This document shows positions 38,924 to 44,806 of a stretch of DNA of 64,000 bases, one piece after another (positions within the stretch are counted from its first letter, which is position 1; each line of letters opens with the position of its first letter). Source of the DNA: Bacteroides sp. (lineage in GTDB: Bacteria; Bacteroidota; Bacteroidia; Bacteroidales; Muribaculaceae); assembly GCA_014802325.1 (NCBI GenBank), contig JAAVCK010000026.1, positions 1 to 64,000 of the forward strand. The letters run 5' to 3'. The notes beneath the pieces are model-generated. The model had not been told where the DNA came from. It was given only the letters and a program-made list of their open reading frames with translations, and ran no database searches. Position numbers and translations under genes: made by a program.

Positions 38924-39616
38924 TTATTTAAATCCTGAAGCTATCATCATGACGCCGACAGCATCGTCAGGCATACTGTGATCAAAATAATTTCCCCATA
39001 TAAGATCGACAGTATCCGGGAGTGACGCGGTGAAATCTGTTATAGCAATGATTTCTCCCATTTTTATCGGATTTGACGAGCCGGGATTATGCGATAAGAG
39101 CATGATGATATGATCGGCTGACTCAATATTGTCGTGCCCGATATTGCAGACTGTACTTTCGATAGCTTTTTTGATACGTTCGTCGCCTTCCGCCACAGCG
39201 CGGGAGGTGACGAAATTTTTTGTCGCTTTCATCGAAGAGTCCAAGTCGAAGAATCCGATATGAATGGCTCCACTGTGAGAAAATGGATAAAGTATGATTT
39301 CCGTTACTTCTGCAAGTTTTTCGGCTGGCACGGTTGTGAGTGAGTCTGCGAGATCAGGGCTTATGCCGGTGACGTCCGTCACAGCTGCAAGAGTGAGCAG
39401 TCCTGCCTTGCGGAAAGCTCGGGCAGTATCGACGAAACCTTTGCAGGAATTACCGGCTAACAGTATCGCCATCTTGTCACCTTCGTGAGGTACGACTGTA
39501 TCATTCATACCCGCAACTTCGGCTTTAGTGTAATCAAGATTTTTTGCAATGATTTCATTTACAGCAGCTTCGCCTTCCTTACCGAAGCCAATCACTCTGA
39601 ATGGTGTACTATTCAT
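38924..39616 (-). CDS. Shortened FtsZ homologue without the GTP-binding signature
   Basis: 230 residues; FtsZ cores are about 310. The N-terminus FRVIGFGKEGEAAVNEII follows FtsZ's first strand and glycine loop (VIGVGGGGGNAVN), but with charged residues replacing glycines. Residues 49-81 (MAILLAGNS... LLTLAAVTD) follow the FtsZ segment that normally holds the GGGTGTG signature; that motif is gone. Residues 120-229 match the FtsZ C-terminal domain: GFFDLDSSMKATKN, EGDERIKKAIES, then a strand pattern to VGVMMIASGF (FtsZ ...VTVLATGF). It is thus probably unable to hydrolyse GTP and might bind FtsZ or act alone. The promoter shares a 19-bp box with the small RNA and AAA+ gene. Confidence 0.75.
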   Translation of the reverse strand: MNSTPFRVIGFGKEGEAAVNEIIAKNLDYTKAEVAGMNDTVVPHEGDKMAILLAGNSCKGFVDTARAFRKAGLLTLAAVTDVTGISPDLADSLTTVPAEKLAEVTEIILYPFSHSGAIHIGFFDLDSSMKATKNFVTSRAVAEGDERIKKAIESTVCNIGHDNIESADHIIMLLSHNPGSSNPIKMGEIIAITDFTASLPDTVDLIWGNYFDHSMPDDAVGVMMIASGFK

Positions 39617-39655: not shown

Positions 39656-39691
39656 CAAAAGTAAAGCATAGATGTATTATTTTCCGATACA
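39656..39691 (-). promoter_or_regulatory. Promoter of the FtsZ-like gene with shared 19-bp box
   Basis: Leftward -7 element TACTTTTG (plus-strand CAAAAGTA, 39656-39663) and, 9 bases upstream of it, the box TGTATCGGAAAATAATACA (39673-39691, minus strand). No -33 TTTG: the box occupies that position, which suggests an activator or a repressor site. Confidence 0.7.
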
Positions 39692-39709
39692 GCATAAAAA
39701 TTTTCATAG

Positions 39710-39745
39710 TGTACTGAAAAATGATACACCTGAAAGATAATTTTG
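39710..39745 (+). promoter_or_regulatory. Promoter of the candidate small RNA with shared 19-bp box
   Basis: Box TGTACTGAAAAATGATACA (39710-39728), 9 bases, then -7 TAATTTTG (39738-39745). Back to back with the FtsZ-like promoter; same architecture as the AAA+ promoter at 43050. Confidence 0.7.
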
Positions 39746-39748
39746 CAT

Positions 39749-39910
39749 CGTGACAGAGATTTCGACCGCCCGTCAGAAGGTTTTTGAATTCCGGCTCGGG
39801 TATGTCGATTACTGACAAAGGTAATTCTTACAGCTAATACTATAATACACACAAAAAAATGCAGAAAGTTACCGTCTTCGGCATCATTAGGCCGGAGACG
39901 GCGTTTTTTT
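39749..39910 (+). ncRNA. Candidate small RNA (about 160 bases)
   Basis: A full promoter (39710-39745) and a strong rightward terminator (39872-39910) bracket about 160 bases that hold no convincing protein. The start lies on the strand opposite to both neighbours. Very short frames exist (a GTG frame of 21 codons at 39750 that would be almost leaderless, ATG frames of 11 codons at 39802 and 17 at 39859), so a tiny peptide cannot be excluded. I propose a regulatory RNA made together with the FtsZ-like and AAA+ proteins. Confidence 0.5.
39872..39910 (+). terminator. Strong terminator of the candidate small RNA
   Basis: CCGTCTTCGGC (39872-39882) pairs with GCCGGAGACGG (39891-39901), one G-U pair, then CG and seven T. 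The T run directly after the stem shows the rightward direction; it may also serve the WYL gene leftward, where a T run comes about 10 bases later. Confidence 0.85.
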
Positions 39911-39924
39911 GAGTGCATGTCCGA

Positions 39925-40968
39925 TTAACGGCTGTCACTGTCGGTAACGTTGCGGTAATGCGACGCGGCTATATTCACGTGACGGGCCATGCGTTCACGC
40001 AGAATGGGGGGAGCTGTCACTTCCACATGTCCGCCGAATCCGAGTATCAGTCGTTCGAGTTCATTGTTGAGCACCACTTTCATTGATATCTGAATACTAC
40101 CGTCGCCGAAACGCTGCTCCACCTTTTGAGAGCGATGAAACGGCTTAGACTCTACGTAGGGAGCCTGATCACTATCGATTTTTATCACAACCCTACGCGC
40201 ACGGTCATGAATATTTTTCGATACACCTATGGTATCATCAAAAAAGTGAGCCGGATCGAAAGCCACACATGCCTTAAACGGATGCGTCGTGTCTACTTCA
40301 ACGGAGTGAATGCGGTCAAGAGCGAAGATATTGACCTGTGGTGTATGATTAGAGGCTTTCTCACATATAAGAAACCAGCGGTTGCGGTATTCCTTAAGCA
40401 AGTAAGGATATACGGTGATCTTGTCGGCAGTGCGCGCCTTGAACGAGCGGTACTCTATGATCAGTGTCTGCTGCTTGCGCACCGCATCGTAAAGCGTACC
40501 GATGTATTCAGCTCCTCGATAGCCGGGCACGTGCTCCATATCCATGGCCGGAGCCGAGGTGCCGGTGTGACGTGAAATCTGTTCGTTGAGCTTGCTGATG
40601 GTATCGATTGACGATGCCAACTGCGGGAAGCCCTGGAGCTGGCGCAAGATGTCGAGAGCCGAGTTGAGCGCGTCGAGACCCTCGTCGTTGAGGGGCAGAT
40701 GGGTGATACTGTAATCAGGATCGTCGTATTCGTAATATTTGTTATCGCGTACTACGATGGGCGCGTTATAACCCAGACGGTCGCTGCGCATCAGAGCCAG
40801 ATCGTTTTGAAACGTGCGTCGGCTCACCGGATTGCTGCGGCCTTCGTATTCGGCCAGCGCATCCGTACATGCGTCGATAAGATCATTGATGGTCCAGCGG
40901 CGGTATCGGTTCTGAAGACAGCGGTCGATAGTGGAGATGCGTATCAGAGTGGAGCGATTAAGAGGCAT
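39925..40968 (-). CDS. WYL-domain transcriptional regulator
   Basis: 347 residues. N-terminal winged helix-turn-helix (about 5-75, STIDRCLQNRYRRWTINDLIDACTDAL and VSRRTFQNDLALMRS), central WYL domain (about 150-235: LIIEYRSFKARTADKITVYPYLLKEYRNRWFLIC), and C-terminal WCX domain ending VEVTAPPILRERMARHV. WYL regulators bind nucleic-acid ligands or respond to DNA/RNA damage and often control RNA-repair or defence genes. It is divergent from rtcB-prfH with a 25-base perfect-arm palindrome between the promoters, so it very probably controls them and itself. Confidence 0.9.
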   Translation of the reverse strand: MPLNRSTLIRISTIDRCLQNRYRRWTINDLIDACTDALAEYEGRSNPVSRRTFQNDLALMRSDRLGYNAPIVVRDNKYYEYDDPDYSITHLPLNDEGLDALNSALDILRQLQGFPQLASSIDTISKLNEQISRHTGTSAPAMDMEHVPGYRGAEYIGTLYDAVRKQQTLIIEYRSFKARTADKITVYPYLLKEYRNRWFLICEKASNHTPQVNIFALDRIHSVEVDTTHPFKACVAFDPAHFFDDTIGVSKNIHDRARRVVIKIDSDQAPYVESKPFHRSQKVEQRFGDGSIQISMKVVLNNELERLILGFGGHVEVTAPPILRERMARHVNIAASHYRNVTDSDSR

Positions 40969-40984
40969 GATTGAAATTTTTTTG

Positions 40985-41044
40985 CAAAAATATGAAAATA
41001 TTCTCCGGTGCGCAAATCAGTTGCGCACCGCCCGCGTAATTTTG
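40985..41044. promoter_or_regulatory. Divergent WYL/rtcB promoters with palindromic operator
   Basis: Leftward -7 TATTTTTG (plus-strand CAAAAATA, 40985-40992) for the WYL gene and rightward -7 TAATTTTG (41037-41044) for rtcB. Between them a perfect 10-base inverted repeat, CGGTGCGCAA (41006-41015) and TTGCGCACCG (41021-41030) with a 5-base spacer. It covers the -33 position of the rtcB promoter; likely the WYL binding site. Confidence 0.75.
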
Positions 41045-41062
41045 CATCAAAATTCTTAATCT

Positions 41063-42262
41063 ATGATCATCAAAGGAAAATCTACCGAAGCATTAATTTT
41101 TACAGATAATATAGAAGAGGAGGCTGTGAAATGGATAAAGGAGCTTTGCAATCAGGAGGGTATGGCGGGTATCCCGGTAGTGCAGATGCCTGATGTACAT
41201 TCAGGCAACGGATGCAATGTCGGCACTGCGTATCCTGTCGGGGAATATGTGAATCCCGACCATGTGGGTGGCGACATAGGATGCACTATCTCGATGCATC
41301 GACTTTCTTCGCCGTTATCCGGCAATGATTTCGCCCTGCTCGACCATCGAATCCGCGAAGCAATACCTATGGGTACAGATATATGTATGAAAAATTCTTT
41401 GAATGAAAAGGAAATGTTTCGATTCATCAACTCGCGCTACATGCAGGCGCGATCGGCTGCTCCCAATCTCGTGGCGGAGCTGCCTCGTATCGATGCCCGC
41501 TTCATTTCCGACTTCTGCCGACGGATAAAGTTGCAGGAAGGGGTTTTCTACAAGAGTATAGGCACGCTCGGCGGAGGAAATCATTTCATAGAATATGGCG
41601 AGGACACTGCCGACGGCAGCGGATGGCTCACCATACACTGCGGCTCGCGTAATCTCGGAGTCAAAGTGGCGTCATACTGGCATGGCGTTGCGCAAAATCC
41701 CCGACGCGCTAAGCTCGTGGGTTATCTTTGGGGCGATGCTCTACAAGGGTATCTGTCGGATATGGTGATAGCCCGAGCCTACGCTCTCTACAATCACCAT
41801 ATTATCCGCGACCGCGTATTTGCAATACTGCGTAAGTTGTGCAAGGCGAAATGTAGCGAGTCAATATTCACCACTCATAACTACATATCTTTCGCCGATG
41901 AAGTACCCGTGCTCCGCAAGGGGGCCGTGGATGCCTCGGAAGGGGTGAGGCTCGCTATTCCGCTCAACATGCGTGACGGCATAGCGATATGCACGGGTAA
42001 AGGCAATCCACAGTGGCTCCGGACCGCGCCTCATGGGGCCGGACGGATCATGAGCAGGGCGCAGGCACGCAAGAATCTATCGATGGATGAATATCTGGCC
42101 TCCATGCAGGGCATATATTCCACATCGGTCGATTCGGGCACGCTCGACGAGTCGCCTATGGCTTACAAGCCGGCTGAAGAAATTCTGCGGCTGATTGAGC
42201 CTACGGTCAATGTGCAGTCGATAGTCAGACCATTAATCAACATCAAGCACTCAGGAGAATGA
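41063..42262 (+). CDS. rtcB: RNA-splicing ligase RtcB (RtcB2 type, PrfH-linked)
   Basis: 399 residues. Mn2+/GTP site residues are all present: D71 and C74 (GGDIGC), H174 (GGGNHFIE), H192 (IHCGSRNLG), H272 (FTTHNY), and the guanylylated His H324 (RTAPHGAGRIMSR). RtcB joins 3'-phosphate or 2',3'-cyclic-phosphate RNA ends to 5'-OH ends. The stop overlaps the prfH start by 4 bases. In the published RtcB2-PrfH pairs the ligase repairs 16S rRNA cut near the decoding centre after PrfH frees the damaged ribosome; this pair has the same arrangement. Confidence 0.95.
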   Translation: MIIKGKSTEALIFTDNIEEEAVKWIKELCNQEGMAGIPVVQMPDVHSGNGCNVGTAYPVGEYVNPDHVGGDIGCTISMHRLSSPLSGNDFALLDHRIREAIPMGTDICMKNSLNEKEMFRFINSRYMQARSAAPNLVAELPRIDARFISDFCRRIKLQEGVFYKSIGTLGGGNHFIEYGEDTADGSGWLTIHCGSRNLGVKVASYWHGVAQNPRRAKLVGYLWGDALQGYLSDMVIARAYALYNHHIIRDRVFAILRKLCKAKCSESIFTTHNYISFADEVPVLRKGAVDASEGVRLAIPLNMRDGIAICTGKGNPQWLRTAPHGAGRIMSRAQARKNLSMDEYLASMQGIYSTSVDSGTLDESPMAYKPAEEILRLIEPTVNVQSIVRPLINIKHSGE

Positions 42263-42864
42263 AAAAGTATATTCAGATCACAGCCGGGCGAGGTCCGGTG
42301 GAATGCGCACGTGCTGTCACACTTGTAGCCCGCGAATTGCTAAAGGCGGTGCCGTCTCTTACGATGGTGACATGCGAGCCCCATCATCAGGCCCCCGACT
42401 GCTTTATGTCAATCACATTTGTGACCGACTGCGATGAGGCGTATGTGCTGATCCGTCAGTGGGACGGTACGGTATTGTGGCGGTCGACCCGCAATCCTTA
42501 CCGCCCTAATCACAAGCGGAGCAACTGGTATGTAGGCATCAGCAGCTTTGATGAAGTTGCCCTCCCTGCTGTGAATGAATCAGATATTATATATGAGACT
42601 TCACGCTCGGGAGGCAAAGGCGGTCAGAACGTCAACAAGGTAGAGACAGCCGTGAGGGCCGTGCATACACCTACGGGGTTGTGGGTGAAGTGTAGCGACG
42701 AGCGCTCACAGCTACGCAACCGTGAGACAGCGCGCGAGCGCCTTATGCTGAAGCTCCGTGAACTCAATACCTCTCGCGAGGCAGCTTCACGCTCCCGACA
42801 GTGGAGTGCACATGACTCGCTGGAGCGTGGCAATCCCGTGAAGACATTCAGCGGACAATTGTAA
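42259..42864 (+). CDS. prfH: Peptide chain release factor homologue PrfH
   Basis: 201 residues, lacking the codon-recognition domain of RF1/RF2. The catalytic GGQ is at 121-123 in SGGKGGQNVNKVETAVRA, followed by VKCSDERSQLRNRETARERL. The N-terminus (about 1-60) carries the PrfH-specific domain. PrfH hydrolyses peptidyl-tRNA on ribosomes whose small-subunit decoding centre is cleaved. Overlap with rtcB (ATGA) indicates coupled translation. The 250 bases downstream hold a MITE-like element. Confidence 0.94.
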   Translation: MKKYIQITAGRGPVECARAVTLVARELLKAVPSLTMVTCEPHHQAPDCFMSITFVTDCDEAYVLIRQWDGTVLWRSTRNPYRPNHKRSNWYVGISSFDEVALPAVNESDIIYETSRSGGKGGQNVNKVETAVRAVHTPTGLWVKCSDERSQLRNRETARERLMLKLRELNTSREAASRSRQWSAHDSLERGNPVKTFSGQL

Positions 42865-42865
42865 A

Positions 42866-43032
42866 TAAGTAAGTTTCAAGAATTAGTTTATATCAATCTT
42901 CGGCTTGATAATGCAATCTTTCAACTTACTCACACGTCATTATGGAACCCCATAACTCCATGCTCCTAAATTGAAATCTTATCATTATCAATCACGAATC
43001 TTATATATAAACTAATTTCTGAAACTTACTTA
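42866..43032. mobile_element. MITE-like element, 167 bp
   Basis: Terminal inverted repeats: TAAGTAAGTTTCA at the left end and TGAAACTTACTTA at the right end match perfectly, and the match extends to 26 of 28 positions. GTAAA flanks both ends (42861-42865 and 43033-43037) as a probable 5-bp target duplication. The inside is AT-rich and has no frame. This is the form of a miniature inverted-repeat element moved by a transposase elsewhere. Confidence 0.7.
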
Positions 43033-43049
43033 GTAAATTTTTTTCAAGG

Positions 43050-43085
43050 TGTATCGGTAAATGATACAGCATGGGAGTAATTTTG
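43050..43085 (+). promoter_or_regulatory. Promoter of the AAA+ gene with shared 19-bp box
   Basis: Box TGTATCGGTAAATGATACA (43050-43068; TGTATC-N7-GATACA palindrome), 9 bases, then -7 TAATTTTG (43078-43085). The ATG follows 29 bases later. Same box and spacing as at 39656-39691 and 39710-39745. Confidence 0.75.
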
Positions 43086-43114: not shown

Positions 43115-44806
43115 ATGAGAAAGCTCAACATTTCAAAGCAGGACAAAAGCGAAAACATTAAGGACAAGACACAGACCATTCGTGTGAAAAGCATTCTTGA
43201 GGCCTTCGAACACATCGTGGAATTGGCGGAAAACTCCAACCTTGATGACGACTTTTTCACCAAGGCTTCATCGTGTATCCGCTATGCTTCGCGCAAACTC
43301 GGACTCACATCTATGCAGGTGGTTCTTCTGGCTATGTTTGTTGACCGCAGCGAGGATCGTCGTATCATGATGTCGGAAATGGCTAAATATACCGGATGCC
43401 GCACCACTAAGTTTCTCCGTCTGGCTGATGATATAGATATTCTCGAACAGTGTCGTTACATAAGGGCATCGCGCGGCCGCGATTCACTCAGCTACCGTGT
43501 ACCTGCTCCCGTACTTGCCGCTTTGCGCGCCAACGTACCCTATACGCATGTAGAGGAACCTGTGATGGACACTCAGGAATTCTTCGACCGATTTGATCAA
43601 TACCTTTCCGAGATGAGCGCCGGCGAGCTGACATACAGTGAGTTGTGTAACCTTATCGCAGATATACTCGAAGAGATAAAAGATACTACATTCGCCCGTA
43701 ATCTGGCCCGCTTGGACCTTGAAGGCGAAGACAGGATGCTGTTTCTATTCATGGCACATCTGTTCGTGAGAGATGACGATGACAATATCGGCTTTCACGA
43801 TATAGAGGAACTCTATGACCTCCGCGAGATCCCTTCGTGGGTGCGCCGCGAATTTCGCTCACGCTCTTCTGATCTGTTCGAGAAGAAACTTATCGAGAAT
43901 GTGAATGAAGACGGCATGGCACGTACGGACGCATTCAAACTCACCGATTCAGCCAAGCAAGATCTTCTTGGCGAACTCAATCTGCAAGCATTCGCCAAGT
44001 CCGACAAAGGATTGGTTATGGCCGCAAGTCTCGCTGAAAAGCGCCTGATATACAATTCGGCTGAGGCCGGTCAGATAGCCGAACTAACGTCAATCCTGTC
44101 GGCCGAGCGTTTCAGCCAGGTTCAGACCCGCCTTGAAAAAGCCGGTATGCGCAAGGGTTTCTGCTGCATATTTTACGGTGCACCCGGTACCGGTAAAACC
44201 GAGACCGTATACCAGCTTGCGCGTCGTACGGGCCGCGACATAATGCGTGTCGATGTCGACAAGATCAAGAGCTGCTGGGTGGGTGAGAGCGAGAAAAACA
44301 TCAAAGCGCTCTTTGACCGCTACCGCAATATTTGCAGCTCTCGCGAGTTGGCTCCCATACTGCTCTTCAACGAGGCCGACGCCGTGCTCGGTGTGCGTAT
44401 GGAGGGGGCGTCAAGAGCTGTGGACAAAATGGAAAACTCCATTCAGAATATCATATTGCAGGAGATGGAATCGCTCGACGGCATTATGATAGCCACTACC
44501 AATCTCACCACTAATCTCGACAAGGCATTCGAGCGCAGATTTCTCTACAAGATACGTTTTGAGAAACCCACCGCAGAGTCACGAGCCATAATATGGAAAG
44601 AGATGCTCCACGGTCTGTCCGACAGCGACGCCGCCTTACTGGCAAAACGTTTTGACCTGTCGGGAGGCGAGATAGAAAACATATCGCGCAAACACACCGT
44701 CAACTCTATCCTTGCCGGCAAGGATGAGATAGTAATCGACGACATAATCGACAGCTGTCTTAATGAGCGCCTCGACAATAGCAATCGAAGCCGCATCGGA
44801 TTCTGA
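43115..44806 (+). CDS. AAA+ ATPase with N-terminal helical domain
   Basis: 563 residues. Residues 1-310 are mostly helical and unassigned, with a winged-helix-like part near 80-135. The AAA+ module: Walker A GAPGTGKT (355-362), Walker B LLFNEAD (416-422; Asn419 replaces the usual Asp, as in other bacterial proteins of this kind, and Glu420 is kept), sensor 1 N463 (ATTN), arginine finger candidates R474/R475 (AFERRF), then a C-terminal lid. A single AAA+ ring is typical of remodelling ATPases. Substrate unknown. The promoter shares a 19-bp box with the FtsZ-like gene and the small RNA, linking it to that system. Confidence 0.85.
   Translation: MRKLNISKQDKSENIKDKTQTIRVKSILEAFEHIVELAENSNLDDDFFTKASSCIRYASRKLGLTSMQVVLLAMFVDRSEDRRIMMSEMAKYTGCRTTKFLRLADDIDILEQCRYIRASRGRDSLSYRVPAPVLAALRANVPYTHVEEPVMDTQEFFDRFDQYLSEMSAGELTYSELCNLIADILEEIKDTTFARNLARLDLEGEDRMLFLFMAHLFVRDDDDNIGFHDIEELYDLREIPSWVRREFRSRSSDLFEKKLIENVNEDGMARTDAFKLTDSAKQDLLGELNLQAFAKSDKGLVMAASLAEKRLIYNSAEAGQIAELTSILSAERFSQVQTRLEKAGMRKGFCCIFYGAPGTGKTETVYQLARRTGRDIMRVDVDKIKSCWVGESEKNIKALFDRYRNICSSRELAPILLFNEADAVLGVRMEGASRAVDKMENSIQNIILQEMESLDGIMIATTNLTTNLDKAFERRFLYKIRFEKPTAESRAIIWKEMLHGLSDSDAALLAKRFDLSGGEIENISRKHTVNSILAGKDEIVIDDIIDSCLNERLDNSNRSRIGF

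Follow-up and report, generated by a model that had tools for sequence, protein, structure and literature searches.

A conserved palindromic promoter element in Bacteroidales and an unlinked WYL-domain protein as its candidate regulator in a predicted RNA-damage regulon

We analysed a 64,000 nt stretch of DNA (hereafter the window) from a Muribaculaceae genome labelled Bacteroides sp. (assembly GCA_014802325.1, contig JAAVCK010000026.1, positions 1 to 64,000). It carries an rtcB–prfH gene pair, divergent from a gene for a WYL-domain regulator (WYL-A), with an FtsZ-like gene and a candidate short RNA on one side and an AAA+ ATPase gene on the other (Table 1). A first-pass annotation had described three 19 bp near-palindromes here, preceding the FtsZ-like gene, the short RNA and the AAA+ gene, each lying 9 bases before a TAnTTTTG element. 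All three were confirmed and are designated box B. The spacer between box and -7 element was exactly 9 bases in every case, CA followed each -7 element, and the boxes showed no mismatch to the first-pass consensus, which had itself been derived from these three sites. A search of the window allowing up to three mismatches returned three boxes against 0.25 expected in shuffled sequence. Two further genomes of the family (loci L099 in G142 and L115 in G161) displayed a box equivalent to B1 at the matching place, and box B2 and its -7 element were kept in both.

Table 1. Features of the window, with the tRNA-Leu-like RNAs of other box-B loci in the last row. N9 and N16 denote spacers of 9 and 16 bases
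Feature	Position	Strand	Remarks
FtsZ-like protein	38924..39616	minus	230 aa; FtsZ fold over the full length; GGGTGTG (T4) loop absent, T7 aspartate D124 retained
Box B1 (TGTATCGGAAAATAATACA)	39673..39691	minus	before FtsZ-like gene; -7 element TACTTTTG at 39656-39663; whole promoter unit 39656-39691
Box B2 (TGTACTGAAAAATGATACA)	39710..39728	plus	before candidate short transcript; -7 element TAATTTTG at 39738-39745; whole promoter unit 39710-39745
Candidate short RNA	39748..39914	plus	ends approximate; terminator-like hairpin 39872-39901
WYL-A	39925..40968	minus	WYL + WCX regulator, 347 aa; divergent from rtcB
-7 element toward WYL-A (TATTTTTG)	40985-40992		N16 from box A; TTTG inside box at -33 place
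Box A (TGCGCAAATCAGTTGCGCA)	41009..41027		different 19 bp palindrome, between WYL-A and rtcB
-7 element toward rtcB (TAATTTTG)	41037-41044		N9 from box A
RtcB RNA ligase	41063..42262	plus	
PrfH, release factor H	42259..42864	plus	
MITE-like insert	42862..43036		175 bp, 28 nt inverted ends; between prfH and AAA+ promoter; MITE, miniature inverted-repeat transposable element
Box B3 (TGTATCGGTAAATGATACA)	43050..43068	plus	before AAA+ gene; -7 element TAATTTTG at 43078-43085; whole promoter unit 43050-43085
AAA+ ATPase	43115..44806	plus	563 aa; AAA domain nearest IetA-type models
tRNA-Leu-like RNAs (other loci)	L121:9430-9520, L130:9440-9518, L137:1748-1839, L140:8981-9069		also in L127 and L139

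The box alone carries little information in a search of the 2.34 Mb genome to which the window belongs (hereafter the own genome). Loose matches to the first-pass box (up to three mismatches) numbered 17 against 18 in a reversed control and are therefore without meaning; the next best match after the window boxes had two mismatches. When the 9-base spacer and the -7 element were included, the same tolerance gave 40 matches in 24 of 198 family genomes and three in the reversed control. A refined consensus, TGTMKCRNNAAWTGMKACA-N9-TANNTTTG, made from those 40 sites, gave 138 matches in 52 of the 198 genomes at up to two mismatches (reversed control, three). Across 295 genomes of the order, with one mismatch allowed, it gave eight sites in five genomes (control, one), four of them in the own genome. 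The exact refined promoter was found at 65 sites on 59 stretches among 84,980 species, where we estimate a chance expectation below one in 257 Gb (about 40 bits, equal base frequencies). One of these stretches is labelled Ignavibacteria bacterium and one 'uncultured bacterium'; the remainder carry Bacteroidales names, among them two Candidatus names which we take to belong to that order. The earlier judgement that identical spacing was unlikely to be due to chance is thus borne out by the window shuffles, the family scan against its reversed control and the exact scan of the whole collection.

The spacing and the absence of a -33 element were examined separately. A weight matrix was built from 30 of the 40 family sites, picked by hand; since those loci had shaped the matrix, scores obtained on them are not independent, and the spacing was re-tested on 49 loci retrieved by similarity to box A, the FtsZ-like protein, the AAA+ protein or a second WYL protein (WYL-B, described below). 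With the spacing left free over a range of 0–27 bases, TAnnTTTG stood at exactly 9 bases in 32 of 41 boxes and at other distances in two. The proposal that the box replaces the -33 element also held, with TTTG at 19–21 bases before the -7 element in 0 of 121 box-B sites and three of its four letters in two. By comparison, 163 of 400 other TAnnTTTG sites upstream of open reading frames (ORFs) matched at least three letters. Because the box sequence is fixed at this place, the absence is one fact about the consensus and not 121 independent ones. From its sequence, spacing and distribution, box B is predicted to be a real, specific and conserved operator.

The search of the own and related genomes also showed that the conserved unit sits before homologues of the AAA+ and FtsZ-like genes. 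We assembled a gene-association set of 49 stretches (48 loci, L099-L146, and part of the window) with 85 box sites, and restricted counts to genes starting within 150 bp of a box; unrestricted next-gene counts take in genes more than 1 kb away (three of eight RtcB rows) and a mixed HAD cluster. Because the box itself served to retrieve part of the loci, these counts are to be read as descriptive. The next gene encoded the AAA+ ATPase at 18 sites, WYL-B at 11, RtcB at five, a HAD protein at five, a phosphoesterase at four, a MoxR ATPase at four and the FtsZ-like protein at three (window, L099 and L115). Pfam identified RtcB, HAD_SAK_2, RNase_T/Rv2179c-like exoribonuclease, Metallophos, bpMoxR, VWA, PLDc_2 and tubulin/FtsZ GTPase domains among box-linked representatives, HAD_SAK_2 being described by Pfam as 'HAD domain in Swiss Army Knife RNA repair proteins'. 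At the 65 exact sites of the whole-collection scan the next gene was the AAA+ gene in 16 cases and WYL-B in 15 or 16. At least one of 26 regulon families was present on 50 of the 59 exact-match stretches (up to 8 kb each), and WYL-B (at least 50 % identity) on 29. The figure of 50 is a consistency check and not an independent test, since the 26 families were drawn from the window and from loci mostly retrieved by box B, and many of the 59 stretches come from genomes of the family sample.

Retrieval by protein gave a similar picture. AAA+ homologues found by protein alone (within the genus, at least 276 bits) had a box upstream in nine of ten places, the window's own included, and the box-less exception was a 38 % paralogue. 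Among 14 FtsZ-like genes, three lay directly behind a box and six belonged to runs of genes on one strand that were preceded by a box and a WYL gene, whilst two were cut off by contig ends and three had no box. A second kind of RtcB gene displayed tandem boxes, B then A (L101, L102 and L142). Together with the conservation of the box before AAA+ and FtsZ-like homologues, these associations support the earlier suggestion that the three promoters form one regulon tied to RNA repair. A fifth own-genome box-B site (G000:C13:2700-2735, locus L216) precedes ORFs of 203 and 334 aa with no recognized function and lies behind an ORF resembling, by eye, gene cluster 48, which is box-linked in L102 and L267.

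The first-pass annotation had offered the neighbouring WYL protein, an unlinked factor or an alternative sigma factor as regulator of the three promoters. Of these the unlinked factor fits best, and the best candidate regulator of box B, judged by gene content and promoter sequence, is WYL-B, a 301 aa WYL regulator. This unlinked paralogue of WYL-A has box B in its own promoter. In the own genome it is encoded on a contig other than the window's (G000:C5:123710-124612; 70 % identical to the search query), behind the promoter TGTCGCACGAAATGCGACA-N9-TATATTTG, which ends 24 bp before the gene, and an exoribonuclease gene lies directly behind it. Among 41 WYL-B genes (E ≤1e-100) in the 198 family genomes, box B was present within 150 bp upstream in 27 and at 0.9–3.9 kb upstream on the same strand in a further eight. 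All 37 family genomes with WYL-B contained a box, against 15 of 161 without it (Fisher P ~2e-28); leaving out boxes at WYL-B's own promoters, the figures were 34 of 37 and 15 of 161 (P ~5e-23). The only other genome of the order sample with WYL-B (E ≤1e-90), G234 from another family, encodes a 69 % identical protein. There an exact box heads a same-strand gene run ending in rtcB–prfH, a weaker box precedes a phosphoesterase gene, and no WYL-A was found in the 19 kb read. Bacteroides salyersiae DSM 18765 carries WYL-B (70 %) and the AAA+ gene (63 %) with a box before each, on an 8 kb stretch without WYL-A. In L279 and L283 WYL-B stands back to back with the AAA+ gene, and the box faces the latter.

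The WYL-B of L135 matched the Pfam WYL and WCX models at 60.8 and 28.6 bits, both above cut-off. The WYL-B sequence profile matched PafBC (2e-11) and DriD (8e-5), and a structure model of WYL-B compared with the PDB found its best matches in DriD (E 8e-12, template modelling score ~0.5). Two other WYL sequences deserve record. A 298 aa WYL gene in L193 (G153), 38 % identical to WYL-B, has its own promoter palindrome, TGTTTCAGGTTTTGAGACA, with TAATTTTG 9 bases on, and perhaps represents a third related specificity. In Paramuribaculum intestinale (G143:C13) the WYL-B match is split into two overlapping pieces in different frames, reflecting either a broken gene or a sequencing fault.

Several observations weigh against WYL-B as the reader of box B. 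The box at its own promoter in the own genome (TGTCGC...GCGACA) differs from the window boxes (TGTAT...ATACA) at variable positions, and at this stringency six of the 41 WYL-B genes lacked a box within 8 kb. Box matches occurred in 15 family genomes lacking WYL-B, compared with three control sites across all 198, and the co-occurrence P values overstate independence because the genomes share descent. Three genomes of other families (G414, G465 and G255) have a box at up to one mismatch and no WYL-B (E ≤1e-90); no regulon family was present on the G465 and G255 stretches, whilst the box in G414 precedes a short ORF resembling, by eye, a gene under G234's box. None of the 26 regulon families was present on nine of the 59 exact-match stretches. 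Two more WYL paralogues in the own genome (contigs C4 and C25; 41 and 38 % identity) are possible binders of the box, the survey of WYL promoters having covered that of C4, and the WYL-B structure model is of modest confidence (predicted local distance difference test score 77.5, predicted template modelling score 0.57).

The palindrome that WYL-A faces, box A, differs from box B in sequence but shares its geometry. Box A with its spacer and -7 element (up to two mismatches) was found in 44 of the 198 family genomes and not once in the control. A -7 element (up to one mismatch) stood at 9 bases from box A at 20 of 25 WYL-A genes examined, many of these loci having been retrieved through box A. 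The single palindrome serves two promoters, at a spacing of 9 toward rtcB and 16 toward WYL-A, an arrangement that fits an activating role toward rtcB and a self-repressing one toward WYL-A. Toward rtcB, three or more letters of TTTG were found at the -33 place in 0 of 28 box-A promoters; toward WYL-A, the full TTTG lay at that place within the box in all 14 N16 sites. Given that the -33 TTTG is missing on one side and present inside the box on the other, WYL-A probably activates rtcB(-prfH) and represses itself. A second own-genome box-A match, on contig C10, precedes an unnamed 297 aa ORF, and by eye no repair gene was seen among the called neighbouring ORFs.

The promoter plan closely resembles that of DriD, the DNA-damage activator of Caulobacter. 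The published account describes a 20 bp pseudo-palindrome that covers a poor -35 element and keeps a constant distance to the -10, with the DNA-binding domains of DriD flanking sigma domain 4 (PMC12340889). On that account the two systems share the WYL + WCX protein, the palindrome over the -35/-33 region, the fixed distance to the -10/-7 element and a site before the regulator's own gene; they differ in phylum, operator and targets, with DNA repair in DriD and RNA repair here. By sequence, box-B promoters show the features of DriD/PafBC-type sites, overlapping a poor -35/-33 element at fixed distance to the -10/-7. In mycobacterial sigma adaptation by PafBC, a WYL protein likewise lets the housekeeping polymerase use special promoters, although PafBC is a heterodimer that works with a -26 motif and responds to DNA damage, and the part of the account at hand mentions no palindrome (PMC11804915). 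Both PafBC and DriD respond to single-stranded DNA.

RNA repair itself has precedents. The Salmonella RtcR system (rsr-yrlBA-rtcBA) is damage-induced; besides RtcB it includes an RNA that has a tRNA-like domain, and competition of this RNA with the anticodon nuclease is offered by the authors as one possibility; its activator has a CARF domain, and a WYL regulon, FtsZ-like protein, AAA+ protein and PrfH gene do not figure in the portion of that account available (PMC7790460). Pfam detected only WYL and WCX in WYL-A and WYL-B, so that neither has the CARF plus sigma54 AAA+ architecture of RtcR-type regulators. The rtcB2–prfH operon of E. coli protects from colicin E3, a cleaver of 16S rRNA, and again no WYL regulon appears in the accessible part of its description (PMC9223846). 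A literature search found no RNA-repair regulon run by a WYL protein, in agreement with the first-pass remark that no system with this content had been described; some of the gene neighbourhoods may already be mentioned by Burroughs and Aravind (2016) in their work on RNA repair in conflicts.

Taken with the sequence evidence, these parallels make it probable, in our judgement, that box B is the operator of WYL-B in an RNA-damage regulon with DriD-like geometry, activated by this protein. In this model a signal of nucleic-acid damage, probably in the form of RNA ends or fragments, would switch on a WYL-B dimer, which would sit on the 19 bp palindrome centred at the -33 place and hold the housekeeping RNA polymerase at promoters that have a good -7 element and no -33 TTTG. 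We take WYL-B to be an activator because its putative promoters share the DriD plan of fixed spacing, ordinary -7 and no -33, for which PafBC is a second precedent. RNA is proposed as the signal because the cargo of the regulon points to RNA, and a function as an RNA-damage regulon is likely. In the window the output would comprise the AAA+ ATPase, the FtsZ-like protein and the short RNA; in relatives it would also include RtcB, PrfH, the Swiss Army Knife HAD protein, the 3'-5' exoribonuclease, the phosphoesterase, MoxR/VWA proteins and tRNA-Leu-like RNAs. The paralogue WYL-A would read box A, of like geometry, activating rtcB–prfH and probably repressing itself, whilst the FtsZ-like protein may halt division during RNA repair.

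Other readings of the pattern were weighed. That WYL-A governs both rtcB and the three box-B promoters is suggested by its adjacency and by the co-location of the FtsZ-like gene, WYL-A, rtcB, prfH and the AAA+ gene in the window, G142 and G161 (rtcB in G161 having been found by similarity search). WYL-A, however, faces box A, with the -7 element at the same spacing as noted above, and on the B. salyersiae and G234 stretches box B is accompanied by WYL-B while WYL-A is absent, so that the neighbouring protein proposed earlier is probably not the regulator and control of everything by WYL-A is quite unlikely. Box B might instead be a site at which WYL-B or another repressor blocks the polymerase; palindromes over the -33 region are typical of repressors too, and some WYL proteins (BrxR, CapW) are described as repressors. 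Against this, promoters with no -33 element would be weak unaided, and the constant 9-base spacer fits an activator making contact with the polymerase, which leaves repression unlikely. An alternative sigma factor would explain why box and -7 element form one fixed unit. Dyad symmetry such as that of the box is, however, not required by a sigma factor, the distribution of the unit follows that of a WYL gene, and TAnnTTTG is the ordinary -7 element of Bacteroidota; by this argument we regard a sigma factor as highly improbable.

The status of the short RNA is evenly balanced. It may be a by-product without function, the second box serving to help the divergent FtsZ-like promoter: box, -7 element and hairpin were kept in all three genomes carrying the arrangement (own genome, G142 and G161), whereas the body was not conserved, and the hairpin could also terminate WYL-A transcripts. 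The small RNA claimed in the first-pass annotation is therefore upheld as to promoter and hairpin and not as to body. Its fold gave a z-score of -2.3, the hairpin being the strongest stem; Rfam returned three matches with E ≤1 between 38900 and 43200, all below gathering threshold, so that no known RNA family was identified there, and a general sigma70 promoter scan was uninformative (10 against 6.4 expected). Conversely, B2 is the better conserved of the two boxes, the -7 element and hairpin are kept, and box B precedes tRNA-like RNAs elsewhere. A tRNA-Leu-like sequence follows box B in six loci (L121, L127, L130, L137, L139 and L140), that in L127 being cut by a contig end. ARAGORN called two tRNA-Leu(UAG), one Gly and one Asp among them, and none in two. 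Where complete, the acceptor, D and T arms are alike; the anticodon arm is variable or missing, being shortened in L130 and L139, with an insert in L139 and an odd loop in L140. A HAD gene follows in L121, L140 and L137. P. intestinale DSM 100749 (L235) carries a tRNA-Leu-like RNA at the site corresponding to that of L137.

In the window's FtsZ-like protein the FtsZ fold covers the full length. Across 13 aligned FtsZ-like proteins the GGGTGTG nucleotide-binding T4 loop was absent from every one, whilst the catalytic T7-loop aspartate (last of NxDxxD; D124 in the window) was present in all and other T7 residues vary. The gene is probably switched on by the same putative RNA-damage alarm system, and a role for its product in a division checkpoint is plausible. 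Damage-induced division inhibitors of the SulA type offer a parallel, in that a damage regulon makes a protein that may act on FtsZ; the candidate here differs in being, by fold, itself an FtsZ homologue. Short FtsZ-related proteins of a further group (cluster 10: L110:9294-9974 and six others) keep a T4-like loop in most members, the L110 member matches PF00091, and some of their genes adjoin FtsZ-like genes lacking the loop; the two perhaps form a split or complementary pair. This GTPase-half partner had no close match in the own genome, where the single match lies on a 474-residue FtsZ frame.

DNA-damage regulons such as those of LexA, PafBC and DriD are well known, and the RtcR operon is the RNA counterpart that we found described; the present case, if true, would represent an RNA-damage regulon spread over several loci and marked by a readable operator. 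Much more tentatively, one may imagine an 'RNA SOS' of gut Bacteroidales, in which a WYL activator sensing broken RNA (e.g. tRNA or rRNA ends) would run ligase, end-healing and rescue enzymes, together with tRNA-Leu-like RNAs whose altered anticodon arms make them decoys for anticodon nucleases, and an FtsZ look-alike without GTP site that would cap FtsZ filaments by its retained T7 face, stopping division until the RNA is mended. The operator allows targets to be listed by sequence, genes without known function included, and offers a direct test of WYL-domain sensing, and the two paralogous WYL proteins with two palindromes and one geometry constitute a natural specificity swap. Cultured gut strains are concerned, namely B. 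salyersiae DSM 18765 with WYL-B and boxes and P. intestinale DSM 100749 with boxes and the split WYL-B match.

As regards the AAA+ gene, its product scored 101.1 bits against the curated NCBIfam model for IetA, an anti-phage ATPase, well below the cut-off of 510. The MITE-like insert upstream of its promoter has two further copies, 98–99 % identical, on contig C10 of the own genome.

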